Virus record (IMG/VR): IMGVR_UViG_3300010430_000420
Coordinates: 1 to 25,490 of that record
DNA from: a virus
Reading direction: 5' to 3' (one strand)
DNA: 25,490 nucleotides
Of this stretch, positions 1 through 25,490 are shown piece by piece (positions within the stretch are counted from its first letter, which is position 1; the number at the start of each line of letters is the position of its first letter). A program made the position numbers and the translations under genes. Below the pieces are notes generated by a model, which searched no databases, was not told the DNA's origin, and saw only the letters and a program-made list of their open reading frames with translations.

Positions 1-435
1 GGACACTTTTGGTGTGAATGGTTTGAAGGTGACCATTATAGCATTGACTATGCTTGGCACAATAATAAATTAGAACCAACTACAACAACAGTAGGAACTA
101 AAGAGGGTTTAAAGTTTACACAATGGACCAAAATTGCTAACGTAGATAAGAAGCTACCGGATTGGTTTGACCATTTTGATGATGTTGAAGAACTCAATGT
201 AGAGTTTATAGGAGACAAACTAATTGAAGTGCATCTGCGTAGCGGTAATGACATTGTGCATGATGACCCTATTGGAACTAAAATGATTCCACATTGGAAG
301 GACAGTGATCCAGATTATATTAACATGTTAAAGGAAAGTTGGACTTACCATAACAACTACGGTGATGATGAAGCTTATGATGCTTCAGGTTATATTGATA
401 ATCCACGTTTAGGTTATCTTAAACTTAAAGGTTGA
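1..435 (+). CDS. Partial protein with ATP-grasp-like C-terminus (5' end missing)
   Basis: The frame is open from the first base to a TGA at 433-435, giving the last 144 residues of a longer protein. The piece is rich in W, D and H. Its central part (about residues 64-80) reads LNVEFIGDKLIEVHLR, which resembles the late strand of ATP-grasp enzymes, where a conserved acidic residue and Asn/His (usually IEVNxR) bind the metal-ATP. This likeness is my inference from one motif; the nucleotide-binding half lies outside the window, so ligase function cannot be confirmed. The stop codon lies inside the -35 box of the next promoter, so the gene belongs to the transcript before the late module. If not ATP-grasp, it is simply an unknown phage protein. 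Confidence 0.6.
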   Translation, partial: GHFWCEWFEGDHYSIDYAWHNNKLEPTTTTVGTKEGLKFTQWTKIANVDKKLPDWFDHFDDVEELNVEFIGDKLIEVHLRSGNDIVHDDPIGTKMIPHWKDSDPDYINMLKESWTYHNNYGDDEAYDASGYIDNPRLGYLKLKG

Positions 436-460
436 CTTTACTTTATACCTGTGTTATAGT
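432..460 (+). promoter_or_regulatory. Strong sigma70-type promoter with extended -10
   Basis: TTGACT (432-437) and TATAGT (455-460) are separated by exactly 17 bases, and TG at 452-453 makes an extended -10. Transcription is expected to start near 467. The -35 box overlaps the TGA of the preceding gene. A perfect 7-bp inverted repeat (TTATAGT at 454-460, ACTATAA at 464-470) covers the -10 box and start point. The promoter would serve the small membrane peptide and the tRNA, using unmodified host RNA polymerase. It is the only good sigma70 promoter I see in the window. Confidence 0.75.
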
Positions 461-490
461 ATTACTATAATAACAGCTTAGGAACACAAC

Positions 491-592
491 ATGGAATTTG
501 CAAACTTTCTTTTAAAATGTACGTTATGGTTCTTTGGAATCATATTAGTAATTGCTTCAGCTCCTTATTGGTTATCCTGGTTAATTGCTTAA
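491..592 (+). CDS. 33-residue single-pass membrane peptide
   Basis: This short open frame starts with ATG at 491, seven bases after an AGGA (480-483), and ends with TAA at 590-592. The product is almost wholly hydrophobic and aromatic: MEFANFLLK, then a run of about 20 residues (CTLWFFGIILVIASAPYW), then LSWLIA. It should form one transmembrane helix. It lies directly downstream of a strong sigma70 promoter and only seven bases before a tRNA gene, so the two are probably co-transcribed. The good ribosome site and promoter support a real gene despite its size. A role in the host membrane (holin-like, or an early membrane-active peptide) is possible, but I recognise no family. Confidence 0.6.
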   Translation: MEFANFLLKCTLWFFGIILVIASAPYWLSWLIA

Positions 593-599
593 CAGTCAT

Positions 600-673
600 T
601 GGGGTGTAGCCAAGCGGTAAGGCATCGGGTTTTGATCCCGTGATCGTTGGTTCGAATCCAGCCGCCCCAGCCA
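600..673 (+). tRNA. tRNA-Gln (anticodon UUG), CCA encoded
   Basis: The 74-base sequence folds as a tRNA. The 7-bp acceptor stem TGGGGTG/CGCCCCA has one G-T pair, followed by G and an encoded CCA (671-673). The D stem is GCC/GGC. The anticodon stem ends in a TTTTGAT loop with TTG at positions 34-36. The T stem GTTGG/CCAGC closes the standard TTCGAAT loop. The first anticodon-stem pair is a U-U mismatch. It strongly resembles bacterial tRNA-Gln(UUG). It reads CAA, which is by far the commoner Gln codon here, notably in the Gln-rich ejection proteins, so it may supplement the host pool in late infection. Confidence 0.95.
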
Positions 674-700
674 ATCACAAACGCATGTTGGTTCTTTGTG

Positions 701-708
701 TATAAATA
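701..708 (+). promoter_or_regulatory. T4-late-like promoter motif TATAAATA
   Basis: This is a perfect match to the T4 late promoter element. It lies between the tRNA and the first tail gene, 42 bases before the chosen ATG at 750. If used as in T4, transcription starts near 714. That start lies beyond an upstream in-frame ATG at 696, which supports the ATG at 750 as the real start. Confidence 0.65.
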
Positions 709-749
709 TCAATATAGATATTTCCAAAAATAAAGGAACCAAAACCAAT

Positions 750-3434
750 ATGCCACAAATTAAAAAAGCAATGACGGAAGTTAGGATTCCGTTTAACAAA
801 ATGAGTTTTACTCCAGACGTGCCTAGTGCGGCATTGGCAGTTAACGAATACAATTACGGTGCAAACGTTGAAACGGATGTGCGAGGAATAAGAAGCGTAA
901 GCGGAGAAGAAGCAGTCTTTAATACTGTAGGTAGGCGTGGATGCTTTTTAACAGGTGGCTTTAGAAGTGATGATAACTTTTGGTTTATTGCCGCCAACAC
1001 ACAAACTTTTACAGCAACAACTGGCGCAAGTGGTGATGGTGCTACAGCAACACTAACGTTTGACAACCCAGCAGTAGACTTTGGTAGATACAGCATTGGT
1101 GAAACGGTGTTAGTTGAAAATGTTGATCCAGCAGGTTATAATGGAACACATCAGATCACAGGTACAACTAATACTTCAATAAGTTATGCGAGTACACAAA
1201 CTGGAGCACAAGTGTCACCAGGTTTAATCACAGGTGCTGGTGGATGGCAATGTAGGAATCCAAAAACAGGAGGCTGGTCGGACATTACACCCGTAACTGG
1301 TTATGCTGGGTTTGATCCAGCTACAGGAACTACACCTTGGCCTTATCAGTTTGTTACAAACATAACACATTCCTGGAACGGTACAATACCTTTCTTTAAC
1401 GATGAAAACAATCCACCAATGTTTTGGCCAGAAACAGAACGCTTGAGCTTCCCAGTAACAGGAGCAACAGGAGATGGCGTAACAGTTACAATTACATTTC
1501 CCACACAAGCAGTACAACCTTGGCAAATTGGAGATACTGTACAAGTAGAAGGTGTTCGTCCAGCTACAGGTGTTGGTCCATTTCAAGGTTTCAATGCACT
1601 TGCAACAGTTACAGCGGCAACCACTTCAAGCGTGAGTTACTTGGATCCATTTGTTGGAACATATGTTAGCGGAACGGGTTGGATAGAAGACCCAATTCCA
1701 AAATTAACAATGTATTCAAATGAAATCCCAAAGAACATTCAAGACATTGTTTTTGTTAGTGCAACCACACAACGCATCAACTTGCGTAACACACTGGCAA
1801 CTGCGCCGTTTACAGGTGGAGACCAAATTGTTATTAGCAACGTAAACAGTTTCTTCAATGGTGTGTTCACTGTTGTTAGTTCAACCACAACCTCTATTGA
1901 TTATCTTGCCACTCCAGGAGCCGCATGGCCTGGCGTTACATCGGGTGTTGTGAGCCCACGTTACTCATGGAACTATAATCCAGAATGGAGTCGAGTACAT
2001 GCAAAGTTTATGCGACTGTACAACACACCAAATGTAGGTAGTATCCTGGTTGCTGGAAACTTGGTTGCAACAAATGCCGCCACAGGCTTTACGGAAAACT
2101 ATCCTGGTACAGTACAATGGTCACAAGCGTTTGGACTTAACCAAGCTCCGGACCTTTGGGAACCAACTGTTGCAAACGTGGCCAACCAGTTAGAAGTACC
2201 CTTACGTGGTGAAGCTGTAGATGCGTTTGCATCAAACGGACAGTTATTCATCAGTTCATATTGGGACACCGTGGTGTTTAGCCCAATCAACTATTCAACA
2301 ACAAGTGCACCAATACTAGGTGTGCGACTGTTCTCAGAAGGTCGTGGATTGTTAACCAGCAACTGTTTTGCAAGCACAGATAAAATAACCTATGGTGTTG
2401 ATGCTCGAGACATATGGGCGTTTGATGGACAGAGCTTTAGAGGCATTGGTGACCAGCGTGTTAAGAACTGGTTTTATGATCAGTTGGATCCACTGTATGT
2501 ACAGCGTATTCACACACAAATTAATACAACACGTAACCAATTTGAAATATACTACACAACAACAGAAGCAACCAATGGTGTGCCAAATAAAATGTTAGCA
2601 TATAGATTTGACATTGACAGTTGGCAAGCGCCACGTGATGTTGATAGAGCAACGTTTAGTTGTGAATCACCAATTTGGAGATTAAACAACACATTGCCAC
2701 CACCATATTATGGACGTACTCCATATCTAATTGACAGAGCTAGTAGAACTGTGTTTTACATCAGAGGCACGTTTGACGCAAAGCTGGTACAAAAAGATAT
2801 AGGCTACAACTTTATAACAAAAAATGATGGTCCAGGTGATACAGTAATTCCAATTGCTAGTGAATTTAGACGAGACAATATTAAATTGCTTCCAGAATAC
2901 AGCGGCAAGCTAATGGTGCACCGTATACTTCCAGAAGTTGTAAACTTAAACAACAATGAACTACCAATTGATCCAAGCATTAGTTTGGCAACGACTTCAG
3001 TTGTTGGAGATGGTGTTGAATGTACTATCTCATTTGCCGCACAATCAGTAGCGCCTTTTAACGTTGGTGACACCATTGTAGTTGCTGACACAGACAATGC
3101 ATCATTTAATGGCATACAAACTGTTAGTGATTGTACAACAACAACTGTTAAATTTTTATCAGTAACAGTTGCAACGTCTGGGACACAAGGCACAGTAAGT
3201 ACAAACTTAGTTGGTAGCATTGGCATACAACTTGAGGGTGCTAATAGTGTTGGACAAACACCACAGCAAACCACAGCAGTTACAATGACAACAAACACAG
3301 ACTCACCTTGGTGTCAGTTTAGTAATAATGCATATCGTGTTAACACAATAGAAATCTCAAACAGTAGCATTTACAACATTTGGCATTGTAGTGCAACAAG
3401 CTGGCAGTACACACAAACGGAAGATGACCGCTAA
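750..3434 (+). CDS. Tail nozzle-like beta-propeller protein with four inserted beta modules
   Basis: The 894-residue protein probably forms part of the tail tube tip below the adaptor, in the role of P22 gp10 or T7 gp12. Residues about 415-655 carry propeller-like strands typical of such proteins, such as GRGLLTSNCF, KITYGVDARDIWAFDGQSF and an R/K-rich NTTRNQFEIYY stretch. Four copies of a 65-80 residue Ig-like module are inserted: three near the N-terminus (about 88-167, 234-312, 337-402) and one near the C-terminus (about 746-818). The modules share vGDtvxV, YNG/FNG, a TTTSVxY strand and a closing Gly. The start at 750 (MPQIKKAMTEVRIPF) is preferred over an in-frame ATG at 696 because a late-promoter motif and AAAGGA lie between them. 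The assignment rests on pattern, not on a database hit. Confidence 0.7.
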   Translation: MPQIKKAMTEVRIPFNKMSFTPDVPSAALAVNEYNYGANVETDVRGIRSVSGEEAVFNTVGRRGCFLTGGFRSDDNFWFIAANTQTFTATTGASGDGATATLTFDNPAVDFGRYSIGETVLVENVDPAGYNGTHQITGTTNTSISYASTQTGAQVSPGLITGAGGWQCRNPKTGGWSDITPVTGYAGFDPATGTTPWPYQFVTNITHSWNGTIPFFNDENNPPMFWPETERLSFPVTGATGDGVTVTITFPTQAVQPWQIGDTVQVEGVRPATGVGPFQGFNALATVTAATTSSVSYLDPFVGTYVSGTGWIEDPIPKLTMYSNEIPKNIQDIVFVSATTQRINLRNTLATAPFTGGDQIVISNVNSFFNGVFTVVSSTTTSIDYLATPGAAWPGVTSGVVSPRYSWNYNPEWSRVHAKFMRLYNTPNVGSILVAGNLVATNAATGFTENYPGTVQWSQAFGLNQAPDLWEPTVANVANQLEVPLRGEAVDAFASNGQLFISSYWDTVVFSPINYSTTSAPILGVRLFSEGRGLLTSNCFASTDKITYGVDARDIWAFDGQSFRGIGDQRVKNWFYDQLDPLYVQRIHTQINTTRNQFEIYYTTTEATNGVPNKMLAYRFDIDSWQAPRDVDRATFSCESPIWRLNNTLPPPYYGRTPYLIDRASRTVFYIRGTFDAKLVQKDIGYNFITKNDGPGDTVIPIASEFRRDNIKLLPEYSGKLMVHRILPEVVNLNNNELPIDPSISLATTSVVGDGVECTISFAAQSVAPFNVGDTIVVADTDNASFNGIQTVSDCTTTTVKFLSVTVATSGTQGTVSTNLVGSIGIQLEGANSVGQTPQQTTAVTMTTNTDSPWCQFSNNAYRVNTIEISNSSIYNIWHCSATSWQYTQTEDDR
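1011..3203 (+). repeat. Four copies of an Ig-like beta module within the nozzle-like gene
   Basis: The protein-level repeats lie at about 1011-1250, 1449-1685, 1758-1955 and 2985-3203. Shared features in order are G(D/A)GxTxTxxF, a vGDtVxV strand, YNG or FNG, a (T)TTxSxxY strand and a Gly-rich end. The DNA of the copies has diverged, so this is an old duplication held by protein selection. Related copies occur in the next tail gene (about 3851-4084) and the adaptor gene (about 22794-23030). Confidence 0.65.
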
Positions 3435-4606: not shown

Positions 4607-4622
4607 CCCGCAACTTATTTTA

Positions 4623-4630: not shown

Positions 4631-4660
4631 AGTTTAAACTTAAAAAGGACACAGCTACCC

Positions 4661-6187: not shown

Positions 6188-9100
6188 GTTTTGCTCCACG
6201 ACAACAACCTGGACCTAGTAGACAAGAACGTCAATCAGAAATGGAAGCTATTACAATTCAGCAAGAACGTGATGAAGAAGAAAGACGTTTACGTGCTGAA
6301 GAGGAAGCTAAAAACAAAGCTGAACGTGAAAGACTAATGAGAGAACAACAAGCCGCCGCAGTTGCTGTGGAAGCTTCTGCGTTTGGTGCAAATACTACTA
6401 GTAAGCCTACTGAAATTGAAGAAACAGTTAAAATTAAAACAAATCCAATTACTGGCGAACAGACAACAACACTAGAAGAGAAGGTACCGGCCGGCGTTCC
6501 TACTAGTATTGGTCCTGTTAGTCCTAACATGGAAGGCGGAGCCGCTCCAATCCCATTAACACCTACAGCAACAGCAAAGCCAGTTTCTCCAGACATGGAA
6601 GGCGGAGCCGCTCCAGTTGCAATGGGTGCTGGCACATTAACGCCAACTGTTGGTGCACCAGGTTCAATACCTACATTACAAGATACATTAGGTGCCGCTG
6701 ATGAAGCAGGTGCTACTGTAACTCCTGGTAGTACACCAGCAACGTCAGGTGTAGAAGGACAAGCAGTTGCTCCAACAGCAAGTTTTACAGACCAAGCAAA
6801 AGGATTTTTAGAAAAGTTTGAACCTTACAAAAAACCAGATGAACAACCAGGACTTCCTAGTTTAGGTTCAGCTACACTAGGTGGTGGCGTAGGAGCTAGA
6901 TCAGGCGGTGCTACATTACGTCCAGGTGAAATGCCTAAAGCAGTTATGCCAACAATGCCTAGTGCTCCAGCACAAGCACCAGGAGTAACTCCACAACTTC
7001 CAGGAGCAGGTTCAGTTGTACAAGCACCAAAACCAATAAGCACACAAATTGGTACTCCACAAGGTGGTATGGTATTACCAGATCAAAGAGAAATTGGTCC
7101 GTCAATTCCTCAAACAGGCATAACACCAGTTAGCTATCAAGTGCCTGGTGATGATGCTTATGCTATGGCACAACAACAGAATTATCCAATGGACGAACTA
7201 GGCAACTATTACGCTCCTAATGGACAAGTTATACGTCCAGGTACAACAATGGCTGACTTAACATCAGTATCACCAGGTGGTTTTGCTCCAACGCCAAACT
7301 GGACTGCACAGTCAGGTGAGAAGTTTGTAGCCGACAAAAAGTTTTATCCGCTTACAGGAGGACAACAGTTTGACAGTCCAGCACAAGCATATATGGCTGA
7401 GAAACAAGCTGAAAGAGAACAGATTGGTCCGGGCATTGATAGTGCTACCGTTCCTGTTATTAGGACAGAACAAGAAAACGCAATACTAGCACAAAAGAAT
7501 GAAATGGAAGGTGGCATACCAGGACTTGTACCTGTTGATGTTGAAGACGCAACAAAAACAGTAGAAGCACAAGTACTTGCAAACTCCAATGATCCAGATG
7601 CACTTAAAAAAGTTATTACTAGTGAAACTGTAGATGTTGAAGTAAAAGACATTGCTAAAGAAAACTTAAAATTAACAACATTAGATAAAGTTAAACAAGA
7701 GAAAGCCGAAGTAAAAGGCAATGCAATTATTGCTAAAGCGGCAGCCGGAGATAAAACTGCATCTAAGCAACTTGCTAAAGCAATAGCTCCATCTACTAGC
7801 GATGAAGGAAGTTATTTTAAAGCATACTTGTTACAACGTTTTGGTTTAACTGAACTTGCAAGAGCAGAACAAAAGAAACTAGGTTCAGACTGGGCTAGAC
7901 CAACATACCGTACTATTAATGATGATTCAGGTAAAGTTATTGGTAAAGTATTAGTTGATCATACAGGTTTTGCTATAAGCGGTATTGACAAAGCAGGCAA
8001 TGCAATGACACGTAAAGCTATTGATGCAGGCAACTACCTAACATACAATCCAACATTGTCTAAGCACCAAAAGGGCGGAGGTATCCAACTTGCGGCTATT
8101 GGCACTAAAGGACAGCCAGGATTTATTGAAGCAGAAAACATTACATACAGAACTAATCCAGACGGAACTATAGATTGGGCAAAAGATAGCAAAGGTGAGA
8201 TTATTACTGATGCTGGTAAACTTGCTAAAATACAAACACAAGTTTCAACTGCTAAAACTACAACTGATAGAGGCGTAGCAACATCAACAAGAGTACGTGA
8301 TGCTAAAGGTGTTGAATGGTCACAAGTTCCTACTAAAACTGGAATGTTATTTTATGACAACTCAGGCGTAGCAGGTATTCCATCAGGCAAGACTGTACCT
8401 ATTACAGTTAGCGGTGATGTTGGCTTACAAAAGAAATTAGCAGAAACTAAAGCAGGTGTTACACTTAAATATGCAGGTGCTATTGAAGCAACTAAAGCAG
8501 GTGCTAGCGAAATTGGTAAGTTTAATGCAACTAACGGAACTAACATTGGTTTTATTACATATGCACCAGGTGCTGAGCCAATCTTAGTTGACAAAAACAA
8601 TAACAATCAACCTCTAACTCCAGATACTAACGGCAACATTACTGCTGTTCCAAACTCAAAAGTAGCTCCAGTTGTTCCTGGAGCAACAACTGAAGTTAAA
8701 CCAGTTGTTCCGGGTGAAAAAGCAGTTGTTCCAGAAGTTAAAACAGAAGTTAAAACAGAAGAAGTTAGTGTTGCACCAGTATTCCAAACTGGTGCTGGTA
8801 ATGAAGCAGAGAGTATTGCTCAATTTAATACTCGTGTTAAAAAGTATGAACAAGAACAAGCGTTAATTAAACAGAAAAAAGAAGCTGAAATTGCTACTGT
8901 TACAAAATCAAATGACCAGCGAGTATTAGACGCAAACAACCTTCTTAAAACTTCAGAGTTTTCTCAAGCAGTAGGAAGTCAAGAACTAATACCTGGTTAT
9001 ATTAAATTGTTAACAGAAAACAAAACTAACTTTGGTGGACCATTACAAGGTCAATTTGCATTAGGTAATATTAGTGCAGAGCAGTTCTTTGGTGACTTAA

Positions 9101-9412: not shown

Positions 9413-10468
9413 ATGGCAGACTTACAATCAATTTTAACTGATCCTAATTATACGGAAGCTAATATTGAAACTAAACAAGCTATCTTTGACAAGTATTCAG
9501 CAGGAAATGCTGATTATACAAATGCAAACGAAGACACAAAAGCACAAATACGTAAAGTATATGGATTAGAAGATGTTGCAATTGGATCTCAATTACAAGC
9601 AGATATAGATCGATTAAATCAACAAGACAAAGTGTCAGAAGAAAACACAATGACTGGTTTAAAGACCACAATGGCCGCAGTATCCCCGTATGCAACACAA
9701 AAGGCTTATAGTACGCCATTAAATGCAAAGAATCTTGGCACTATGGCAAAAACTGCCGCTCCGGGGATAGCAATGGATATGGTATCTGGTGTTCCTGGGT
9801 CTAGCAGAATTGCAGGTGCAGTATCACCTATGTTAAGTAAAGCCGCAGGTGCAACAAAAGACTTAGCAAAACTAGGCTTAAATGTAGGTTCTAGAGTATT
9901 AGGTCCTGTAGGAATGGCGGCCACAGCATATGACGCATATGATGTATACAATGATCCTAACGCTACTGCAACAGATTACATTCCACCAGCAGTAGGTGCA
10001 GTTGCATCAGCACCATTAGCATACAAAACTGCACAAGCAGTAGCACCAGTAGTTGGTAAAGCTACCGCACCAATAGGACAGTTAGTTAATAAAGGCGTAC
10101 AAGCCGCAATACCACCTAGTAAAGCTGTATATGAAGCCGCTGAAGCACAAGCCAAAGCAAGAGGCGCACAAATAGCTAACATAGGTAGAAAATTTGCATT
10201 AGATAAACTTATTCCAGGAATGGCTAGTAAGGTATTAGGGCCTATTAGTGCAGTAGGTGGTATGGTAGTACCAAGTGCAAGTGAATCAGATTACAAATAT
10301 CAATTTCCAATTACTGGACCAGCTAAAGGTAGCGAAATAAATCAACAAACTGGTCAGCCTTGGACAAGAGCAGAACTAGATGCGTACTACACACAATTTC
10401 CTGAAGAACCAGGAATAATAGATCAACTGTCTGGCTTTCTAAGCGAACAATTTAGTAACAACAAATAA
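9413..10468 (+). CDS. Internal virion/ejection-type protein with glycine-zipper-like segments (351 aa)
   Basis: It starts one base after the previous stop, with a good AAGGAG (9398-9403). The N-terminus (about 1-50) repeats a short helical pattern: ILTDPNYTEANIETKQAIFDKYS, then NADYTNANEDTKAQIRKVYG. This style is seen at the ends of phage internal virion and transglycosylase-associated proteins. The middle (about 85-250) is Ala/Gly/Val-rich with small-residue zippers and weakly hydrophobic stretches (VLGPVGMAATAYDAY, PPAVGAVASAPLAY), which could line a channel in the host envelope during DNA ejection. The C-terminus is polar and acidic. It lies at the end of the ejection gene run. The pore-like role is inferred from composition. 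Confidence 0.7.
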   Translation: MADLQSILTDPNYTEANIETKQAIFDKYSAGNADYTNANEDTKAQIRKVYGLEDVAIGSQLQADIDRLNQQDKVSEENTMTGLKTTMAAVSPYATQKAYSTPLNAKNLGTMAKTAAPGIAMDMVSGVPGSSRIAGAVSPMLSKAAGATKDLAKLGLNVGSRVLGPVGMAATAYDAYDVYNDPNATATDYIPPAVGAVASAPLAYKTAQAVAPVVGKATAPIGQLVNKGVQAAIPPSKAVYEAAEAQAKARGAQIANIGRKFALDKLIPGMASKVLGPISAVGGMVVPSASESDYKYQFPITGPAKGSEINQQTGQPWTRAELDAYYTQFPEEPGIIDQLSGFLSEQFSNNK

Positions 10469-10482: not shown

Positions 10483-11031
10483 ATGGAACATAATTTAAAA
10501 GATGACGAATATTCAGTAGTTGCATTGGCTAGGATAGATGCTGAAGCCGAAGTAGAAGCTGAAGATGACGAATACGATATGGAAGACGACAAAGCAAAAA
10601 GCACAGAAGAAGCATTATCTCAAGTGTTTAAAGATAACTTTGTAGCGTACTATCGCAGTCATGTTGCACATGTTAATATTGTTGGACGCAACTTTGTTAG
10701 TTTCCACACATTACTTGGTGGAATTTACGAAGAACTACAAAGTCAAATTGATGTTATTGGTGAATTAATGCGTACACTACAAGCGTTTATGCCTTCTTCC
10801 TTAGAATATGTTGTTGATCATTCACACTTATCCAACGAAGAACTATCTGGTACAGGTCTGGAATTACTTGAAGCAGTATACGAAGACTTAGAACATTTAA
10901 TTGATTGCTATGGACATTTAAATCGTTGTGCTATAGATGACGGTCATGACGAGATTGCAAACTACGCACAAGAACGTATTTTATCACTTAAAAAACATTG
11001 TTGGATGCTTAGATCAACACTTGAAGATTAA
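10483..11031 (+). CDS. Dps/ferritin-like protein
   Basis: Residues about 44-182 match the Dps fold. The signature HVNIVGRNFVSFH at 63-75 corresponds to E. coli Dps HWNxxGxNFxxxH. The ferroxidase ligands of Dps (H51, H63, D78, E82 in E. coli) align with H63, H75, D90 and E94 here, but D67 is replaced by Gly79. The C-terminal helix (about 155-178) also aligns. Known Dps proteins form 12-mers that oxidise and store iron and shield DNA. The first 45 residues are strongly acidic (DAEAEVEAEDDEYDMEDD), unlike the Lys-rich DNA-binding tail of E. coli Dps, so DNA binding by that tail is unlikely. It lies at the end of the ejection gene run with an AAAGG site upstream, and ends tail-to-tail with the minus-strand gene. 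Expression with virion genes suggests packaging or late iron handling, which is inference. Confidence 0.85.
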   Translation: MEHNLKDDEYSVVALARIDAEAEVEAEDDEYDMEDDKAKSTEEALSQVFKDNFVAYYRSHVAHVNIVGRNFVSFHTLLGGIYEELQSQIDVIGELMRTLQAFMPSSLEYVVDHSHLSNEELSGTGLELLEAVYEDLEHLIDCYGHLNRCAIDDGHDEIANYAQERILSLKKHCWMLRSTLED

Positions 11032-11552
11032 ACTGGTGCACCTTCTACTGGTGCAGTTGGTTGTGATTGTAGTTTTTTATAAGCATAACTTCCTCTAACA
11101 TCATATCCATATCTAGCATGTAACTTTAAAAACGTATCACGTTCACCACGCATAGTAGTTGAACATATAACACTAGTTCCTGCATAATGAGCAAAGTTCT
11201 CCCATATCCTTAACATATCTTTTAGTAATTGTATTCTAACACGTGGACTTAGTTCTAAATCTACGTGTGCCATACGTACACTAACCATAATGTCATCACT
11301 CCAGGCGGTTCGGTCACCATTCTTTGCCCAAGTATAAGCTAATAACTTTCCTTCAGGTGTTTTAGCAACACTTATTAATTCGCTTGTAGGTAGGTAAAAT
11401 TGATTAACAACTGCAAACATAATGTTACGTGCATATGTTATTGGCTCAGGTGTAAAAATTTGATCTATTTCTATTTGAAAATTAGCTTCAGCCATATCAA
11501 CAATTGGTTGTACGTCATTGCCTGTGGCGGCACTCCAGGTATATTCTATCAT
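11028..11552 (-). CDS. GNAT-like acetyltransferase-fold protein
   Basis: This is the only minus-strand gene. The ATG at 11552 is preferred because AAAGGA (plus coordinates 11559-11564) lies six bases upstream; a TTG five codons earlier falls on that site. The 174 residues follow the GNAT order: an N-terminal region with EANFQIEID, a strand SELISVAKTPEGKLLAYTWA (about 57-76), motif-A-like VRMAHVDLELSPRVRIQLLKDML (about 92-114), a helix, and a last strand with RYGYDVRGSYAYKKL (147-161). The usual acetyl-CoA loop (Q/RxxGxG/A) is not clear at 104-109 (RVRIQL), so catalytic activity is uncertain. A TTAAATA motif upstream suggests late expression. Its stop shares TTAA (11028-11031) with the Dps stop. 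The substrate is unknown. Confidence 0.7.
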   Translation of the reverse strand: MIEYTWSAATGNDVQPIVDMAEANFQIEIDQIFTPEPITYARNIMFAVVNQFYLPTSELISVAKTPEGKLLAYTWAKNGDRTAWSDDIMVSVRMAHVDLELSPRVRIQLLKDMLRIWENFAHYAGTSVICSTTMRGERDTFLKLHARYGYDVRGSYAYKKLQSQPTAPVEGAPV

Positions 11553-11574
11553 TTCTTTTCCTTTCAATATACTG

Positions 11575-14821: not shown

Positions 14822-16438
14822 ATGTTAGGTACTGACATATTAATGTCAAGAGCATTACGTTACGTATTAGATCAACATAGTGTTGCACCTGAAACGTATG
14901 CAATGATGCCTACTAATTTACGTGATCAGTTAGAGTCATTGGTATATGACATTGCTGAGGATATGCGTTATAATCAACTAAAATACTTTCGACCATTTGA
15001 TCATCAATTTGAATTCTTTAAAACAGGAGACAGTGATAGACGTGGTATACTTGCGGCTAACAGGATTGGTAAAACAGTAAGCACTTGTTATGAAACAGCA
15101 ATGCATTTAACTGGACAATATCCTGATTGGTGGGAAGGTCACCGATATAAACAACCTATTACTTGTATGGTTGCTGGTGAGGGTTGGAGTCAGGTTGCAC
15201 TTGTTTTACAAAACGAATTACTAGGAACACAAGATGTAAAAATGGAACAAAACTTAGGTACTGGTGCTATTCCACGTGATTGTATTAATACAGAAACAAT
15301 GCGTAATGATGGTGCTAACTCTATTGGTGTAGAAGTAAAACACATAACAGGTGGTTACAGTTATTTGTTATTTGCAAACTACACACAAGAAGTAAGACAG
15401 TTACAAGGTTTTAAATTGAACTTGGCTGTGTTTGATGAACAACCACCAGATCCTTTCTTTAGTGAGGTAGTTACACGTACTGCTACTACACAAGGCAAAG
15501 TGTTATGTTCGTTTACGCCACTTAAAGGACTTAACGGACTTGTTAGTAAGTTTTGGAATAAAGAAGAAGGTTATGAATTTATTCGTGTTGCATGGGACGA
15601 TGTTCCTGAATATGATCCGTGGGGACATCCATTCCTATTAAAAGAAACAAGACTACAACTAGAACGAGATTATTTGCCACATGAACGTGAAGCACGTATT
15701 GCTGGTAAACCAGTTATGGGTAAAGGTGCTGTATTTCAAATTAGAGATTGGCCAATATATAGAACTGGTGATTATGACTTTGGGTCAATGCCTACTATTA
15801 AACGTGTTATTGCACTTGACTTAGGACTAGTAAATGACCAAACTGTAATTAGTTTAATGTATTGGGAGCCATATGAAAAGATAGCATTCTTGCATAAACA
15901 AATTATAGTACAAGGAATAGAAGAAGCAGTTCCTACGCAATACATCAATCACTTGTTGAGACCAGAAGTATTTGGTACTCCTATTGTACTACCAGCTGAT
16001 GCTAGTCAACAAGGACGTTATACAATGAGTGCTAATAGCATACGTGAGTTATTTGAAAGTTACGAATTAAATGTTTATGAAAAAGCAATTATGAATCCGC
16101 CAGATCAAAATGGTAAAGTAACTAATCACAAAAGCTATGGTATCAACCAAATGAGACAAATGTTAGAAGTAGGTAGTTTAGTAATAAATGAAAACTGTAC
16201 ACAGTTTTTAAGTGATGCACAAAACTATTATGTTGATACACAAGGACGTTTTAGTGATCCAGATGATACTATTGACAGTTGCAGATATGCACTACTTGCT
16301 TGTTTACAAGGTATTGCTGAAGATTGGGATTATAGAACACCTCAAGAACGTATGGCTATGCAAAGAGATCTATATTATCAACGCAAAGAAATTAGAAATA
16401 ACAATCCATTAAAGAACACATATGATCCAGCACAATAA
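14822..16438 (+). CDS. terL: Terminase large subunit
   Basis: This is the packaging motor ATPase and headful or site-specific nuclease. The ATPase domain has an adenine-binding FRPFDHQFEFFK stretch (56-67), Walker A AANRIGKT (78-85) and Walker B LAVFDEQ with acidic D205-E206 (201-207), followed by a CSFTPLKG coupling motif (229-236). The nuclease domain (about 325-495) carries the expected acidic residues: D333 in VIALDLG, D393 in LPADAS, and D482/D485 in DPDDTIDSCRYALL. At 538 residues the length suits podovirus TerL. The start at 14822 has AAGG (14810-14813) eight bases upstream; an ATG seven codons in is an alternative. It acts with the portal encoded next. Confidence 0.95.
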   Translation: MLGTDILMSRALRYVLDQHSVAPETYAMMPTNLRDQLESLVYDIAEDMRYNQLKYFRPFDHQFEFFKTGDSDRRGILAANRIGKTVSTCYETAMHLTGQYPDWWEGHRYKQPITCMVAGEGWSQVALVLQNELLGTQDVKMEQNLGTGAIPRDCINTETMRNDGANSIGVEVKHITGGYSYLLFANYTQEVRQLQGFKLNLAVFDEQPPDPFFSEVVTRTATTQGKVLCSFTPLKGLNGLVSKFWNKEEGYEFIRVAWDDVPEYDPWGHPFLLKETRLQLERDYLPHEREARIAGKPVMGKGAVFQIRDWPIYRTGDYDFGSMPTIKRVIALDLGLVNDQTVISLMYWEPYEKIAFLHKQIIVQGIEEAVPTQYINHLLRPEVFGTPIVLPADASQQGRYTMSANSIRELFESYELNVYEKAIMNPPDQNGKVTNHKSYGINQMRQMLEVGSLVINENCTQFLSDAQNYYVDTQGRFSDPDDTIDSCRYALLACLQGIAEDWDYRTPQERMAMQRDLYYQRKEIRNNNPLKNTYDPAQ

Positions 16439-16492: not shown

Positions 16493-18820
16493 ATGTTGGA
16501 TATAAAAAATATACCTATTTCAGATATCAACACCAACAAACGCAGGTTACGTAAGTTTGTTGAGATGAAGGGCAACTTGGATGTTAAAATGAACTCCTAC
16601 TTGCGATATCTTGCTACAAAAAATGCAATTAACAGAGCTAGTGACTATCACTATCTTAACCTAGCAGTTACAAACAGTACTGCACCAGTAAATGGAATTG
16701 ATTATATCCATCCTAGCGTAAAGCCAGTAGTTGATTATGCAACTGCTGTTATTGCAAAAGGATTAATGCCTAACGGAGAGATTAACTTTGATTTTATAGC
16801 TGACACAACTGACACAGAAGCCGCATCACGCCAAGCAACTAGAATGGTTAATACAGTTGTTAACCAAATGAATGATCCTCACTTTATTTTAGAGAGATGG
16901 GTTATGGATGCATGTATGCATAAAAACGGCATGATGATGATTAAACCTGTACGTGAACAAGTAACACGTTATGTTGACACAGAAGGCACTATGGAACAAC
17001 TACGTGCATTTGAAGCACAAGCACAAGATTCAGGACTAACTGCTGTACGTCAAAGCAGACGTAAAGACACAGTTGATTTAGAAAAAGTAATGGCAGAAGT
17101 ACAAATGCTAATGCCTGATGCAGATGCAATGTATACAGATAACATTACAACAGAATATGTTAATTCAATTGACGTTGAGGAAGAAGACGATACATTGGAT
17201 GCGGCCGCTATGCACACTAATATGGTTGAGCAAGTGCAAAATACAGAAGCACCTGAATTACTACAAAGTCAAGATGATATCTTACAAGAAGCAATTAAAC
17301 GTAACACAATTTACAAAGCAAAATACAAACTAACTGGTTATACTATTAACATTAAGTTTCATCCAATTGAACAGCATTACTGGGTATGTGATCCAACTGT
17401 ACCTGAAATACGTGATCAACCTTTCTGTGGTTTTTATGATCCAATGACTGTTGCTGAAGCATATGAATTATATCCAGATATGGACTTAGAAGAATTTGAA
17501 AAACATGCAGACTATAACTCTAACGGAGCATACCAAGCAGGTAGTGTATTAAACAACTTAGCAATACATGCAAGAGATAGTGTTCCTGTACAAGGCATTC
17601 CAGTTGATTCAGCCGCTGACAGTGATCCTGCAGGTAGAATGGTTAGTATTGTTACAGTATGGAATCGTTGTGATATTGATGGTGACGGCGAACTTGAATT
17701 AATTGAAATTGTTTATTCAGGTACGTATATTATTAGTGCAAAGGAAGTTGAATTTATTCCTGTTGCTAATATGTGTCCAAAGCCACTACCAGGAAACTTT
17801 TATGGTTACTCAGTAGCTGAAAGTGTTATTCCAATGCAGGAATACTTAACAAGTGCTATGAGAGCTGAAATACAATTAGGACTACTAACTGCTACTCCAC
17901 GTGTTGGTGTTAAACCAGACCGTGTTGATTTTGAGATGATGCAAGATGGCGAAGCGGCTATTTTTATCTTAGACAGTAAGTTTGATCCAAGCAAAGACAT
18001 TTATCAAATGCCACCCCCTTCAGGAAACTTACAGTTCCTTGAAGTTGCAATGAATCGTATCCAACAAGATACAATGGCAATGGTTGGTATGACTACACCA
18101 CAAGACGTGTTTAATCCAGAAGTAATGGCAGCCGGTAACTCGGGTGTTAAGTTACAACTTGCATTAAGTCCAAACCAAATTGTTCAAGACAATACTGTAC
18201 GTAATGCGGCAGAAGGTCTAAAAGAATCTCTTTGGTTAGTGTGGCGTACATTAATACAGTATGGTGATGATTATGGTGTTAAGAAACTAGCATCTGAAAG
18301 CCATCCAGACAAACTACCTGTATTCTTAGACTATGCGGCTTGGGACGATATGAACTTTACAGATCGTAAGCAAATGCAACTAGAACTAGCAGTTGGTATG
18401 ATGAGTGAAGAAAACGCAATTAACAGACAACAAATTATACGTAAAACACAAAGTGAACTTTATACAACAGTACAAGGAATGGCACAACAAGGTACATTAA
18501 CACCTGATTTATATACTAAAATTAAAAAGCCTTTCGAAGACACATTGTATGTGTTAGGTGTAAAGGACTGTGATGCGTATCTACCAACAGATGAAGAAGT
18601 AGGACAAATGATTGAAATGGGTAAAGCGGCCGCTGAAAATGCAACACTTGATCCACTAGATAAAGAAAGAATGTCCAAAGTTAATCTTAACACAGCTAAA
18701 GCTGTTAAAGAGAAAGTTGAAGCCGAAGCTATTATGGCAGAACTTAATGGAACAGATGCAGAAACACAATTAGATTACTTGTCTGTTGCTACTAAGGGAC
18801 TTGGCAAAGTTTATAGTTAA
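16493..18820 (+). CDS. Portal protein, P22-like
   Basis: This 775-residue protein should form the dodecameric portal at one capsid vertex through which TerL packs DNA. Evidence: position between TerL and scaffold, a length close to P22 gp1 (about 725), and P22-portal-like landmarks. These include IHPSVKPVVDYATAVIAKGLMP (about 64-85), a DIDGDGELELIEIVYSG strand pair (about 394-410) and an IPVANMCPKPLPGNFYGYSVAESVIPMQ segment (about 422-449). After these come helices EYLTSAMRAEIQLGLLTATPRVGV and a long C-terminal helical part (about 640-760). An acidic insertion (about 214-260, with EEEDDTLDAAAMHTNMVEQ) is an oddity whose function I cannot tell. A late-type promoter and AAAGGA precede it. Confidence 0.9.
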   Translation: MLDIKNIPISDINTNKRRLRKFVEMKGNLDVKMNSYLRYLATKNAINRASDYHYLNLAVTNSTAPVNGIDYIHPSVKPVVDYATAVIAKGLMPNGEINFDFIADTTDTEAASRQATRMVNTVVNQMNDPHFILERWVMDACMHKNGMMMIKPVREQVTRYVDTEGTMEQLRAFEAQAQDSGLTAVRQSRRKDTVDLEKVMAEVQMLMPDADAMYTDNITTEYVNSIDVEEEDDTLDAAAMHTNMVEQVQNTEAPELLQSQDDILQEAIKRNTIYKAKYKLTGYTINIKFHPIEQHYWVCDPTVPEIRDQPFCGFYDPMTVAEAYELYPDMDLEEFEKHADYNSNGAYQAGSVLNNLAIHARDSVPVQGIPVDSAADSDPAGRMVSIVTVWNRCDIDGDGELELIEIVYSGTYIISAKEVEFIPVANMCPKPLPGNFYGYSVAESVIPMQEYLTSAMRAEIQLGLLTATPRVGVKPDRVDFEMMQDGEAAIFILDSKFDPSKDIYQMPPPSGNLQFLEVAMNRIQQDTMAMVGMTTPQDVFNPEVMAAGNSGVKLQLALSPNQIVQDNTVRNAAEGLKESLWLVWRTLIQYGDDYGVKKLASESHPDKLPVFLDYAAWDDMNFTDRKQMQLELAVGMMSEENAINRQQIIRKTQSELYTTVQGMAQQGTLTPDLYTKIKKPFEDTLYVLGVKDCDAYLPTDEEVGQMIEMGKAAAENATLDPLDKERMSKVNLNTAKAVKEKVEAEAIMAELNGTDAETQLDYLSVATKGLGKVYS

Positions 18821-20422: not shown

Positions 20423-20451
20423 AATAAACATAATAATAGGAGATTAATATT

Positions 20452-21615
20452 ATGGCTTTCATTACAACTGCCAACATTGGTAACGGAACAACTGCGTACG
20501 AAACTGACATCGTTGTTAAAGATCTCGATCTTGACGTTTCCAATAGGGTAAAAGACGATACACCTGTTCTTAACATGTGTATGGCAAAGAAGCGTAAAGT
20601 AAATTCAACTCTTCCACTATGGACAGACGACATTTACAGAGCGCCAGCAGTACAGGCTCAAGTAGAAGCCGCCGCTGTTTCAGCCGCTAACGCTGAAGTA
20701 AACCAAAGATTTAACTTAGGTAACTACACCCAGATTTTCCAAACTACTATTGCTTCCTCAGGAACAGCAAGAGCAGTTGAGCAGTCAGGTGGAGATCCGC
20801 AAGCATACCAAGAAGTCAAACAGCTTATCGAAATGATGTTTGATGTTGAGATGCAATTAGTTAGAGCAGACCAAATCGGTACAAAGTACGGTGGACAAGC
20901 TGGTCTAGCAACTCCTGCTCCTAACACAGGACGTAGAATGGGTTCATTATCATCTTTTGCTGGTACACAGTCATTTGGTGCTACTGGTGGATTAATTGCT
21001 AACGTTACAACTAACACCAACAACGAAACAACTGACGTTCCAGTTGCGGCTGCCGGTGCATTAAACGTTAACTCAGATGGTTCTCAGTTCTACACAGGAA
21101 CTTTTACTAACGAATCATTTTCACCAGCTCTATACAAGCAGTTAGTAACTACTGCGGAACAGCGTTTCAACGCAAAGATCCGTAGCGTTGTTGCTCCAAC
21201 TAGCTTGAGAACTAGTATCAGTGATAACATTGCTCAATCAAGAGGAATCAACCGTGTTAATTCCGAAAGAGGCGATACTATCGCAACTTACGAAGGTGAT
21301 TTTGACTACACTTACGAAATTTATGATTCTTGGATCATGGATGCCGCTGGTGCAGAAAACAAAATCTACTTCCTAAACGATGAAGTTATCCAGTGGGGTT
21401 CATTACGTGATCTTGGACCAAACAACGAAGTATTCTCAAACTCAGATGCTTCATTAGATCAGTTCATCATGGAAGGTACATTGATTGTACGTAACCCAGC
21501 AGGCGTAGGTGTTCTTAACGACATCGAGTCTGGCACAAGTGCTCCACTACCTGGACCACGTGTTGCCGCACTTGTACAAAGAACAAACGCAGGACCTGGA
21601 GACGTTACTCCTTAA
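20452..21615 (+). CDS. Major capsid protein, DUF5309/SU10 family
   Basis: This 387-residue protein forms the head shell. Residues about 91-142 (YTQIFQTTIASSGTARAVEQSGG, then a helix rich in E, M and V) match the start of the SU10-type/DUF5309 coat family. KIRSVVAPTSLRTSISDN (about 242-259), a segment resembling that family's P- and A-domain region (GDFDYTYEIYDSWIMD, about 282-297) and a C-terminal EGTLIVRNPAG also fit. The ribosome site AGGAGA (20438-20443) is the best in the window. Codons use more C-ending forms (AAC, TTC, GAC) than neighbouring genes, as expected for a very highly expressed product. An intrinsic terminator follows, so it ends the head transcript. Confidence 0.9.
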   Translation: MAFITTANIGNGTTAYETDIVVKDLDLDVSNRVKDDTPVLNMCMAKKRKVNSTLPLWTDDIYRAPAVQAQVEAAAVSAANAEVNQRFNLGNYTQIFQTTIASSGTARAVEQSGGDPQAYQEVKQLIEMMFDVEMQLVRADQIGTKYGGQAGLATPAPNTGRRMGSLSSFAGTQSFGATGGLIANVTTNTNNETTDVPVAAAGALNVNSDGSQFYTGTFTNESFSPALYKQLVTTAEQRFNAKIRSVVAPTSLRTSISDNIAQSRGINRVNSERGDTIATYEGDFDYTYEIYDSWIMDAAGAENKIYFLNDEVIQWGSLRDLGPNNEVFSNSDASLDQFIMEGTLIVRNPAGVGVLNDIESGTSAPLPGPRVAALVQRTNAGPGDVTP

Positions 21616-21630: not shown

Positions 21631-21640
21631 TTGTACATGG

Positions 21641-21670: not shown

Positions 21671-21698
21671 GGTAAAGATAAACTCATGGAACAAATAG

Positions 21699-21706
21699 AC
21701 TAAATA
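21699..21706 (+). promoter_or_regulatory. Late-type promoter motif ACTAAATA, leaderless spacing
   Basis: The motif lies just after the capsid terminator and ends five bases before the ATG at 21712, the same spacing as at 11600-11607. No Shine-Dalgarno sequence is present, so the transcript may begin at the ATG itself. Confidence 0.55.
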
Positions 21707-21711
21707 CTTGT

Positions 21712-22302
21712 ATGGAAAATTATAGCAACAACCCCGAGCATCTCAGTGATGAAGATCCGGAAAAAGACTTAGATTACATGCGTCAAGACAAAGGTGGAGT
21801 TGTTACTTCACACAATGGCGTAGGTGATAAATTGCTTAGTGGCAACAATGAACTTTATAATAGCATGAAAGGTGATTGGTCACGTAAAGCATTAAACAAA
21901 AGTGGTAACATAGAAGTTACTACCGGCCGAGAAGGCAACAAATTTTATATTAGGCGCGAACAGAAAAACATTGAAGCGATAAAGCAAGGTGTTCGCGAAT
22001 ACAGACAACTAGCAGAAGCAGGATTCCCTGATCCATTAGCACCAGTTATGCCTGATGGTAAACTTGGTTATAAATGGATGGAGCTACCAAAAGCTATTAG
22101 CTTTGAAATTGCAGAAACATACTTTGGCGGCATGCCTTGGGAAGCAATCAAACGTGATAAAACACTTAAAGCACAATTTTATCAAGTAGTACAAACAGAG
22201 TATCCAGCATTTATTTGTTACCCAGGTGGCAAATTACCTATTCCAGTTGATGTGCCGTATCCGACACGAGTTGGGCAAGAACGCTTCTTTAGAGGACATT
22301 AA
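21712..22302 (+). CDS. Hypothetical protein between capsid and adaptor (196 aa)
   Basis: The start at 21712 (MENYSNNPEHLSDEDPEKD) has no ribosome site but has a late-type promoter motif at leaderless spacing. The N-terminal third (1-70) is polar and probably unfolded. The rest is compact, with IRREQKNIEAIKQGVREYRQLAEAGF (about 83-108), an MPDGKLGYKWMELPKAISFEIAETYFGGMPWEAI region (about 118-148) and a terminal PYPTRVGQERFFRGH. The last half has many aromatics and prolines, which may mean a small folded domain. It lies between the capsid and adaptor genes, so a head-completion or head-decoration role is plausible; I cannot name it. Confidence 0.7.
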   Translation: MENYSNNPEHLSDEDPEKDLDYMRQDKGGVVTSHNGVGDKLLSGNNELYNSMKGDWSRKALNKSGNIEVTTGREGNKFYIRREQKNIEAIKQGVREYRQLAEAGFPDPLAPVMPDGKLGYKWMELPKAISFEIAETYFGGMPWEAIKRDKTLKAQFYQVVQTEYPAFICYPGGKLPIPVDVPYPTRVGQERFFRGH

Positions 22303-22307
22303 AAAAT

Positions 22308-23276
22308 ATGTTTGTAATCCCCAACGCTAATACGTTATTAACGTATATTAAAGATTTTACTGGTAGTAGTGATGATAATGAAATAAAGCAATGCATTTTT
22401 ATGGCAGAGCTGTCAATGCGTAACATTGAGTTACCTGTACTACGTAGTGATCCATATGATGCAGAGTATATTGCAACTGCTGATGCACAAGGTAGAGTTC
22501 CTATTCCAGGTGACATGAACAAGCCAATATTATTCTTTCAACAAGGTGGTACAACTCCAAGTCCAACTGGTCCTTGGATTGTTTATGATCGTATAGGGGA
22601 CAGACGAATCATTGCTGAAACAATGATTGCACAATTTTATAAAAATACACCTAATGCACCAACAATTTACAGAGGAAACTTTAGTGAAGTTGGAACCAAT
22701 TATGAATTTACACCTCCACTTGGAGCAGGCGCAGAAGTTAACTTGTATTACTACAGAGCTTGGCCATTATTGTTTGCTCCGTTATTAGATCAAACTATTA
22801 GTACTACAGGAACTGTTACATTTCCATTAGGACCGTTAGGTAATCCTCAACTAGTTGGAATGACACAAACAACAGGCTTAGCACCAGGAGATCAGATATT
22901 AGCAGGAAATGGCACAGGTGTACTTGGTGGCCCTGTAGCAACAATTATAACAATTGATAGTGCAACATCATTAACTTATAGAGTTGACAGTGGTCCAGCC
23001 GCAGTTGCTGGTACTGTTATAAATGTTTCTCTAACAGGAAAAGATATACAGAATAATCAAGTATTATCATCATGGCCAGAAGGCTATGTGTATGCTACAT
23101 TACGTGAGTATTACTTAAAAAGACATAATGAGGTTGATGCCGCAGTATATGAAGGTAAGTTTAACCAAGCATGGAACGTAGTAGAAGACCAAAACAATTA
23201 TGGTAAATGGAGTGGAGGCACTACGAAGTTAACAAGTGTTTGGCAACCACGCAAATACATGAACTTCAACAGATAA
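22308..23276 (+). CDS. Head-to-tail adaptor (connector) with inserted beta module
   Basis: This 322-residue protein fits the phage adaptor that sits below the portal (P22 gp4/T7 gp11-like role). The N-terminal half (1-160) has the helix and strand pattern of such proteins (TLLTYIKDFTGSSDDNEIK, a segment ending LYYYRAWPLLF). The C-terminal half has the typical helical end: WPEGYVYATLREYYLKRHNE (256-275), then KFNQAWNVVEDQNNYGKWSGG (284-304). Between them, residues about 163-241 form a beta module (LAPGDQI, TIDSATSLTY, AGTVINVS) like those in the two tail proteins near the start of the window. AGAGGA (22291-22296) precedes the ATG. Family assignment is from pattern and position. Confidence 0.75.
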   Translation: MFVIPNANTLLTYIKDFTGSSDDNEIKQCIFMAELSMRNIELPVLRSDPYDAEYIATADAQGRVPIPGDMNKPILFFQQGGTTPSPTGPWIVYDRIGDRRIIAETMIAQFYKNTPNAPTIYRGNFSEVGTNYEFTPPLGAGAEVNLYYYRAWPLLFAPLLDQTISTTGTVTFPLGPLGNPQLVGMTQTTGLAPGDQILAGNGTGVLGGPVATIITIDSATSLTYRVDSGPAAVAGTVINVSLTGKDIQNNQVLSSWPEGYVYATLREYYLKRHNEVDAAVYEGKFNQAWNVVEDQNNYGKWSGGTTKLTSVWQPRKYMNFNR

Positions 23277-23288
23277 GGACAAAAATAA

Positions 23289-25490
23289 ATGGCAGATAAC
23301 ACACTAACCGTATCATCAACCAATACAACTAGTTTGTATGGAGGGCAAGGATCAGCATTTCCAGCACCACCAGGTGATATTGTAATTAACGGTGATTTAG
23401 AAATACGCGGATGTGATTTAACTAGTCCTTGTGCAGATTTTAATTTATTAAATGTATCTCCAACAACAATTAACTTTGGTGGTAATGCAAACTTAAACAT
23501 GGGTAAAGCTGGTGGAACTACAACACTTAGAAGCGGAACACTAGTTGGTACAGAAACAACACAAAACGCTTACAACAGCGTAGCAACAACACTTAACATT
23601 GGTGGAACAGCTACTACACTTAACGTAGGCGCAGGCACTGGAACAGCTACTATAGGTAATCCAACAGTAGTAGGATCAAGTGCTTCACAGGATTTATACA
23701 ACACAACTGCAACAACATTAAACTTTGGTGGTGCGGCAACTGCACTTAATGTAGGTGCTAATAGTGGAACACTTACTATTGGTAATCCAACAGTAGTAGG
23801 AACACAAGCAACACAAAACTTATACAACACAACTGCAACATCACTTAATTTAGGTGGAGAGGCTACTGCAATTACAGTAGGCGCAGGCACTGGAACACTT
23901 ACTGTTAATAATCCAAATATTGCTGGTACTAACACTACACAAAACTTATTCAATACATTTACAGATACACTTAATATTGGTCAAGCCGCTACTACAGTTA
24001 GAATTGGTGCTAATAGTGCTACTCTTGGCATAGGAACAAACTTACAAATTGAATATGATCAAAACAACAACAGATTAAGCTCTCCACAGTTTGAATCTAA
24101 CAGTGGTAACGAAACACAATTAACTGTTAAAGGTCCTAATGACACTACATCAGCACAAGGTACACTTGAAGTATTCAACAAAGAAGACATGCAAAATGGT
24201 AAGTTTATCAGCGTGGAGTCCAATGGAGAAGCTGGTGCTAATGCTGGTTGGCCTTTTGCAATTAAAACAGGAACATATACTGCTAACGTACTAGCCGCAA
24301 GCAACAACATTATTTCATTTATAGATGGAACCACTAGATATGCAACAATTAACCCTGCTGGTCCAACACTTGCTACAGACCTTGTAACAAAAGCATATGC
24401 TGATAGCAGTGATGACAATACAACATATACAATTAATGCAGGTACAAATGCAGGTGGTGCTGACTTAAACTTAGTTGGTAGTGATGCAAGTACAGATACT
24501 ATATTATATGCATCTGGCACAGGTATATCAGTTGTACAAACAGACGTAAACACAATTACTACTTCTCTTAACGCAGATATTAATGACTTAAATGACGTTG
24601 ATATTACTGCAGGCGATGCTGGCGACTTGTTAACATATGACGGTGCTGATTGGATTAACAGTAAATCAATAAGTGGCAATGATTCTTATAGATTTACAAG
24701 AGCAACTGGTGGTACTGGTAGTAATGCTATGTTCTTCCTTAGAAGAACACGTACTGGAGGCAATGCCGCTAACTTCCAAGGACCTTGGTTTGTTGGTGAA
24801 TATGGTGCTGATAACTTAACAAATGCTCCTATTGCTTCAATGAACTTCTTGTATCAAACAAGCACAGGATCAGGTAACGTAGTTAGATTTACAAGCCATC
24901 CAGGTTCAACTGGTACATCAGATAGGATTGCACAATTCAAGCGTGGTGACTTTACTTTTTATAAAGACCTCAACACTGGCTTAGGCACAACAAACGTAGC
25001 ATTGGCAAATATAGCAACCTCAGGTACTACTATTACAGGTACTGCCGCAAGTCAGATTTCAGTATCTAATGCTAGTGGCTCATCATTCCAACCAATCTTT
25101 ATTTTAGAAAGAAACAGAACCAACAACACCGTACCAAATAATGGTGACAGAGGTGACTTTAGAATTCAAATTAGTGGTAGCACTACTGAATACAACATTG
25201 GTAAAGTTGAAGGTGTGTTTAATAATGCTGGCAACCATGAACTAAGTTTAAACGTTTTTGATGGTACTTCTGGCTCAGGTGCTATTTCAACACAAGTTAT
25301 TAAAACTACAAGAAAAGAAACAAACATTACACATATCCCAAGTGCTGGTGGTGCACCTGCAGACGTAGCTACGTTTAACAGAGACGTAATTACATTTACA
25401 AGTCCAGTACAATTTCCAAGTTATATTGCGGCGGATGCTCCGGCAAGTGGTTTATCAGGACAGCAAATTTCTATTAGCGATAGTACGCCA
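23289..25490 (+). CDS. Tail fibre protein (3' end missing)
   Basis: An open frame of 734 codons starts at ATG 23289, with TAAGGA (23274-23279) overlapping the adaptor stop, and runs off the end without a stop. Parts in order: a Gly/Pro-rich N-terminus with GDIVINGDLEIRGCDL (about 29-45), probably the virion anchor; four and a half tandem repeats of about 42 residues (about 59-249); a segment with LATDLVTKAYADSS (about 355-370), of the DLVTKxYVD type common in trimeric phage fibres; NDLNDVDITAGDAGDLLTYDGADWI (about 434-458), a motif frequent in cyanophage-type fibres; and further Ser/Thr/Gly/Asn-rich beta sequence. The receptor-binding tip is outside the window. Confidence 0.85.
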   Translation, partial: MADNTLTVSSTNTTSLYGGQGSAFPAPPGDIVINGDLEIRGCDLTSPCADFNLLNVSPTTINFGGNANLNMGKAGGTTTLRSGTLVGTETTQNAYNSVATTLNIGGTATTLNVGAGTGTATIGNPTVVGSSASQDLYNTTATTLNFGGAATALNVGANSGTLTIGNPTVVGTQATQNLYNTTATSLNLGGEATAITVGAGTGTLTVNNPNIAGTNTTQNLFNTFTDTLNIGQAATTVRIGANSATLGIGTNLQIEYDQNNNRLSSPQFESNSGNETQLTVKGPNDTTSAQGTLEVFNKEDMQNGKFISVESNGEAGANAGWPFAIKTGTYTANVLAASNNIISFIDGTTRYATINPAGPTLATDLVTKAYADSSDDNTTYTINAGTNAGGADLNLVGSDASTDTILYASGTGISVVQTDVNTITTSLNADINDLNDVDITAGDAGDLLTYDGADWINSKSISGNDSYRFTRATGGTGSNAMFFLRRTRTGGNAANFQGPWFVGEYGADNLTNAPIASMNFLYQTSTGSGNVVRFTSHPGSTGTSDRIAQFKRGDFTFYKDLNTGLGTTNVALANIATSGTTITGTAASQISVSNASGSSFQPIFILERNRTNNTVPNNGDRGDFRIQISGSTTEYNIGKVEGVFNNAGNHELSLNVFDGTSGSGAISTQVIKTTRKETNITHIPSAGGAPADVATFNRDVITFTSPVQFPSYIAADAPASGLSGQQISISDSTP
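23463..24035 (+). repeat. Tandem ~126-bp repeats in the fibre gene
   Basis: The protein-level copies lie at 23463-23585 (41 aa, degenerate), 23586-23711, 23712-23837 and 23838-23963 (42 aa each), with a partial copy at 23964-24035. The consensus features are TLNxGGxAT, VGAxxGTxTIGNPTVVG and a closing TQNLYNTTA. This is a regular beta-repeat shaft, probably intertwined in a trimer. Confidence 0.9.

Follow-up and report, generated by a model that had tools for sequence, protein, structure and literature searches.

Elimination of restriction sites from phage genomes has been surveyed in cultured phages, where sites with an observed/expected ratio under 0.1 were found in 7.1% of pairs with orthodox Type II enzymes and in <0.5% of pairs with other types; GCWGC (GCAGC or GCTGC) is among the surveyed sites, and 66.3% of its phage-site pairs lie below expectation (PMC6286503). 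GCWGC methylation is also described from lake bacteria, as N4-methylcytosine (m4C) in Lake Biwa Chloroflexi, with an enzyme that blocks TseI (PMC6329791). Here we analyze the loss of GCWGC from a stretch of 25,490 nucleotides that is the entire IMG/VR virus record IMGVR_UViG_3300010430_000420 (hereafter the window), each end of which falls inside a gene, and from its relatives. By its portal, capsid and terminase, the window is a fragment of an SU10-type podovirus genome, from an uncultured virus of bacteria.

The window shares with the surveyed cases a palindromic Type II site reduced to under 10% of expectation. It differs from them in that absence depends on the flanking base, that strictness differs among close relatives, and that the clade is uncultured and has lost other sites in sets that vary from relative to relative. 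Site elimination as such is already known; new here are the exact form of the flank rule and the way it changes from one close relative to another. TseI, ApeKI and BbvI (GCAGC) have the core specificity GCWGC in common with the lost site, although we know of no report of these enzymes leaving G-flanked sites uncut, a property that the genomes of the relatives call for. The likeness to M.AbaBS3I, the m4C GCWGC methyltransferase of Lake Biwa Chloroflexi, lies in methylation of this motif in freshwater plankton; neither an endonuclease partner nor flank dependence is reported for it (PMC6329791). The closest annotated genome, uncultured Caudoviricetes sp. ctfne034 (MW202484), has the same portal, capsid and terminase families (46%, 61% and 49% identity, respectively) but does not avoid HGCWGCD, the flank-restricted form of the site defined below (51 sites with a central A or T, W, against 19 with a central G or C, S). 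No DNA-level match to the window was found among phage records.

GCWGC depletion in the window

The window holds exactly three GCWGC sites (GCAGC at 7741..7745 and 18128..18132, GCTGC at 21049..21053) and 65 GCSGC sites (44 GCCGC and 21 GCGGC). A sequence-only reading of this DNA had reported the same three sites, all followed by CGG, against about 60 GCSGC; the three sites and their CGG hold exactly, the GCSGC estimate was slightly low, and the depletion is stronger than was claimed. At 39.0% GC, base composition alone predicts 22.4 GCWGC and 14.3 GCSGC, in agreement with that reading's guess of around 20 and fewer, and a maximal-order Markov estimate gives 33.6 GCWGC. The reading had also proposed a null that preserves codon pairs. 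Since most sites are Ala-Ala codon pairs, such a shuffle would retain the signal, and we therefore shuffled synonymous codons among the genes, keeping every protein and the codon usage. Over 1000 shuffles, GCWGC is expected 55.7 ± 3.4 times (minimum 46), which with three observed is site elimination as defined by an observed/expected ratio <0.1 and >15 expected sites. GCSGC, expected 14 times in genes and observed 61 times, is enriched rather than avoided.

The palindromes tested were 4 to 6 bp long or gapped; of these, GCWGC shows the strongest depletion (z −15, followed by AATT at z −7) and GCSGC the strongest enrichment, and no other 4-bp palindrome is eliminated in the window. The codons GCA and GCT account for 588 of 703 alanine codons overall, yet for 3 of 62 when GC comes next. 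Ala-Ala pairs make up 52 of the 56 expected sites, and GCGGCCGCT, singled out earlier as an extreme case of S-written alanines, is indeed present twice (17201 and 18626).

Flanking bases in the relatives and in the window

Scans of IMG/VR with the terminase, capsid, portal and tail genes gave 259 loci, which together with the window and MW202484, and after removal of overlaps, left 171; a search for relatives with the 1075-residue structural gene found nothing. Across the relatives, the observed/expected ratio of GCWGC ranges from 0.00 in a 4 kb contig through 0.05 in the window to 1.47. Counts conditioned on the flanks reveal that what seems to be partial depletion is for the most part a complete loss of HGCWGCD, that is, of GCWGC with no G before and no C after. 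In total, 65 of the 140 clade contigs of at least 8 kb, the window included, lack HGCWGCD altogether and hold 1899 GCSGC in the same context; other relatives do not avoid it. The W share of GCNGC among strong avoiders is 0.00–0.01 in every context that has neither G before nor C after, and about 0.5 where either is present; a middle group has 0.00–0.15 in unprotected against 0.59–0.74 in protected contexts, and non-avoiders stay at about 0.7 in every flank context. Under the synonymous null, 17 near-whole contigs and the window together have 0 HGCWGCD against 1015 expected, 669 single-flank GCWGC against 486, and 59 double-flank sites against 58.5. GCWGC is therefore not avoided under every flank, as the target of a plain GCWGC enzyme (TseI/ApeKI/BbvI type) would be: the relatives keep single-flank sites at a neutral level, and in the window three of the four double-flanked sites read GGCWGCC.

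The flank table is strand-symmetrised by construction. Unsymmetrised counts, made separately, give the strong avoiders a W share of 0.60 for G before and 0.60 for C after, and the rule is thus strand-symmetric. All codon frames are depleted in these contigs (205 observed against 771 expected, 26 against 91, and 5 against 59). The flank rule did not appear in Microcystis phage Mvi-Yong1342-1 or in Methylophilales phage Venkman. We note that one relative (L155) is the opposite case, with GCSGC absent from its genes (7.0 expected) and GCWGC common.

The adjacent base decides: neither −2 nor +3 shows a clear influence, and at +2 only C makes a difference. This bears on the earlier suggestion that the CGG 3′ of each survivor makes the site tolerable. 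CGG follows only 0.8% of shuffled GCWGC and none of the 65 GCSGC, so that its presence at all three survivors is unlikely by chance, but G before together with C after is likewise unlikely by chance (2%). Among 51 relatives that avoid the site, the kept share of single-flank sites is 0.72 irrespective of the second flanking base, except that C lowers it, and GG at the second flanking place is no different (20 W, 7 S). CGG-flanked GCWGC is itself depleted in 24 strong avoiders (3 against 19.5 expected). On the relatives, CGG is consequently rejected as the protection; in them a site is protected when G immediately precedes it or C immediately follows it, and in the window when both do. With three survivors only, CGG may still act as an additional condition in the lineage of the window.

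The window is in fact stricter than most avoiding relatives. All three survivors have G before and CGG after (GGCWGCCGGW), and therefore fall in GGCWGCC, the sole context spared in the window, which explains their survival. The site at 7741..7745 lies in GCG-GCA-GCC-GGA with both flanks protected; that in the portal gene (18128..18132, ATG-GCA-GCC-GGT) is retained in the near-identical relatives L004 and L084; and that in the major capsid gene (21049..21053, GCG-GCT-GCC-GGT) is retained in L084. The fourth double-flanked site, at 9917..9921, is the sole GGCSGCC. Over the whole fragment (1..25490), the W share is 0 of 51 without a protected flank, 0 of 13 with one, and 3 of 4 with both, and retention of GGCWGCC differs from that in all other contexts (0 of 64; Fisher p 8e-5). 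L084 and L004 agree with this rule, although most of these sites are common to the three by descent. The next relative, L006 (86% DNA identity to the window), retains 3 of 4 single-flank sites, and single-flank tolerance thus differs between the two. Two alanine pairs illustrate the difference: that at 16820..16824 is GCC-GCA in the window and GCT-GCC in L006, a single-flank site tolerated there and never found in the window, whereas at 18128 the window's GCA-GCC stands against ATG-GCC-GCA-GG in L006. Both are double synonymous differences, each in line with its own lineage's rule.

Avoidance also turns over among relatives whose proteins are nearly the same. Terminase, portal and capsid were compared at the positions where the window has Ala-Ala, counting a relative where it too has Ala-Ala with neither flank protected; avoiders write W at 0 and S at 150 of these, and non-avoiders W at 87 and S at 21. 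Avoiders are defined by their lack of HGCWGCD, so that the absence of W is built into the comparison; what is informative is the existence of 150 homologous pairs, all S-written, at positions mostly W-written in non-avoiders. On the capsid tree, avoidance needs 26 changes (shuffled mean 33.6), of which 11 are forced by well-supported branches, although recombination of capsid genes may inflate this count. Tree neighbors can have opposite states, as with L014 (74 W, 20 S) beside L209 (0 W, 41 S). The contrast at the same codons (0 of 150 against 87 of 108) makes the pace and strength of restriction selection measurable.

Probable restriction and its alternatives

We consider it very probable that the phage eliminated the site of a host orthodox (palindromic) Type II enzyme that needs non-G flanks, GCWGCD in the window's host and HGCWGCD in the hosts of most relatives. 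Depletion, flank rule, strand symmetry, synonymy and repeated gain and loss are direct observations. We infer a restriction enzyme as the agent, because the loss is at the DNA level, strand-symmetric, synonymous, all-or-none and lineage-specific, and a variant of looser flank demands in the window's host. Relatives also lack other 4-bp palindromes, up to nine of sixteen, in sets that differ from contig to contig as restriction repertoires would demand, which lends support to restriction. Selection would act on double-stranded DNA, turning would-be GCW-GCx Ala-Ala pairs into GCC-GCx or GCG-GCx and eliminating other-frame sites in relatives as well. The enzyme's half-site would be disabled by G as the nearest 5′ neighbor of the site or, equivalently, by C as its nearest 3′ neighbor. 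For most avoiding relatives, both half-sites would have to be free of G, giving HGCWGCD; for the window's lineage, one free half-site would be enough, giving GCWGCD on either strand and sparing only GGCWGCC. The restriction-site avoidance proposed from the sequence alone is in this respect strongly supported, as the changes are synonymous and strand-symmetric, occur in all three frames in relatives and switch among close relatives.

Several points weigh against this explanation. Among 84,980 species genomes, both a portal scan and a terminase-alignment scan came back empty and identified no host, enzyme or cognate methyltransferase. The double-flank claim for the window depends on four sites. 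To our knowledge, no described enzyme requires HGCWGCD or GCWGCD; a literature search for HGCWGCD gave no match. In addition, the GCWGC enzymes of Lake Biwa are methyltransferases without a detected nuclease partner (PMC6329791). Literature searches on palindrome avoidance with flanks and on SU10-like freshwater phages found no direct precedent, and a host hint from a relative's replication gene had no match among phage records.

The same flank data would also fit a plain GCWGC host enzyme (TseI/ApeKI or BbvI-like) whose cutting is blocked by a second host methyltransferase overlapping G-GCWGC or GCWGC-C. Restriction enzymes are known to be blocked where methylation overlaps their sites, and if hemi-methylation blocked cutting, one flank would suffice, as in the relatives, while a requirement for full modification would call for both, as in the window. 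The second enzyme's site would, however, have to be as short as GGCW with nothing outside it, given the lack of effect at −2 and the effect of C alone at +2, and the hosts of about 65 different phages would each need such an enzyme; we regard this arrangement as improbable. Still less probable is a modification-dependent endonuclease of the BisI kind, acting on GCNGC with several methylated cytosines, combined with C methylation wherever GC is not followed by C. BisI-type enzymes are described as requiring two to four 5-methylcytosines in GCNGC (PMC4926085, PMC11347163). HGCWGCD alone has all four GC steps qualifying, so a single rule would cover the W/S split and the relatives' flank rule, every spared site containing GCC or GGC. 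Yet this calls for a methyltransferase of an undescribed GCD specificity, and no PF00145 (DNA_methylase) gene is found in any of 40 related contigs. Moreover, in the window, unflanked GCSGC and GCWGCC would be equal in methyl groups, but the former is kept 51 times and the latter never.

A host codon-pair or translational bias against GCA-GC and GCT-GC would accord with the predominance of Ala-Ala pairs among the window's expected sites. In relatives, though, depletion is equal in the other two frames, the bases before and after act symmetrically, and close relatives with the same proteins prefer the opposite codons; we reject this bias, to which we assign a negligible probability. Phage-borne methyltransferases show no association with avoidance, PF01555 genes being present in 10 of 64 related contigs, avoiders and non-avoiders alike; the window, a fragment record, has no gene of family PF00145. 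Clustering of 1433 proteins from 41 contigs yielded no clean marker gene for avoidance. The best candidate, family 22, occurs in 10 of the 19 non-avoiders and in 2 of the 21 avoiders (uncorrected p 0.005); it may reflect host range, marking a host group, rather than anti-restriction. We note that family 22 (L306-L307, L300-L301 and others) is, by sequence, a repetitive fibre-like protein.

Returning to the orthodox Type II enzyme, we tentatively suggest, as a possibility somewhat short of even, that the clade's hosts share an undescribed Type II family with a flank-excluding, seven-base HGCWGCD specificity, of which a one-sided variant, GCWGCD, shaped the window; the rules for CGCG, GCGC and GAWTC given below suggest that such specificities would be common in these hosts. 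The genomes of uncultured phages give the site of an unseen host enzyme at single-base precision, flank included, which ordinary site counts would miss.

Other eliminated sites and genes of the fragment

Each contig's set of eliminated sites is a fingerprint, and comparing such fingerprints with methylomes could help to find hosts. Two relatives, G044 (L292-L293) and G047 (L338-L339), lack nine of the sixteen 4-bp palindromes: AGCT, TGCA, GTAC, CTAG, CATG, GCGC, GGCC and CCGG, plus ACGT or CGCG. G043 (L290-L291) is a further contig without whole sets of them. Flank-excluding rules recur in G003, G041, G050, G007, G048, G034 and G010 (L276-L355), with CGCG only beside C, GCGC only beside T and GAWTC only beside G; at the same loci, ACGT is retained mostly beside A and TCGA mostly beside T. 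RYCGRY, CCGG and TCGA are all absent from G019 (L278-L279), G012 (L282-L283) and G053 (L320-L321), as if a degenerate YCGR site were avoided.

Membership of the window in the SU10-like group follows from its portal (PF23899, 155 bits) and major capsid (PF17236, 124 bits) matches, both over the Pfam cut-off. The terminase large subunit gene (Terminase_6N/6C; 14822..16438, plus strand) served for the relatives search and the homologous-position test, the SU10-type portal gene (16493..18820, plus strand) for the comparison of Ala-Ala pairs at homologous positions, and the SU10-type major capsid gene (20452..21615, plus strand) for the capsid tree.

A conserved gene at 11028-11567, on the minus strand and oriented opposite to the others, has no Pfam or NCBIfam match; by sequence, its product corresponds to protein family 12, which occurs in about 37 of the 41 long clade contigs. 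Positions 10483-11031 encode a small protein with a weak likeness, far under the curated cut-off, to Dps DNA-protection proteins, and its product matches family 5, present in 41 of 41 long contigs. A tRNA-Gln (TTG) gene lies at 600-673, directly ahead of the tail gene.

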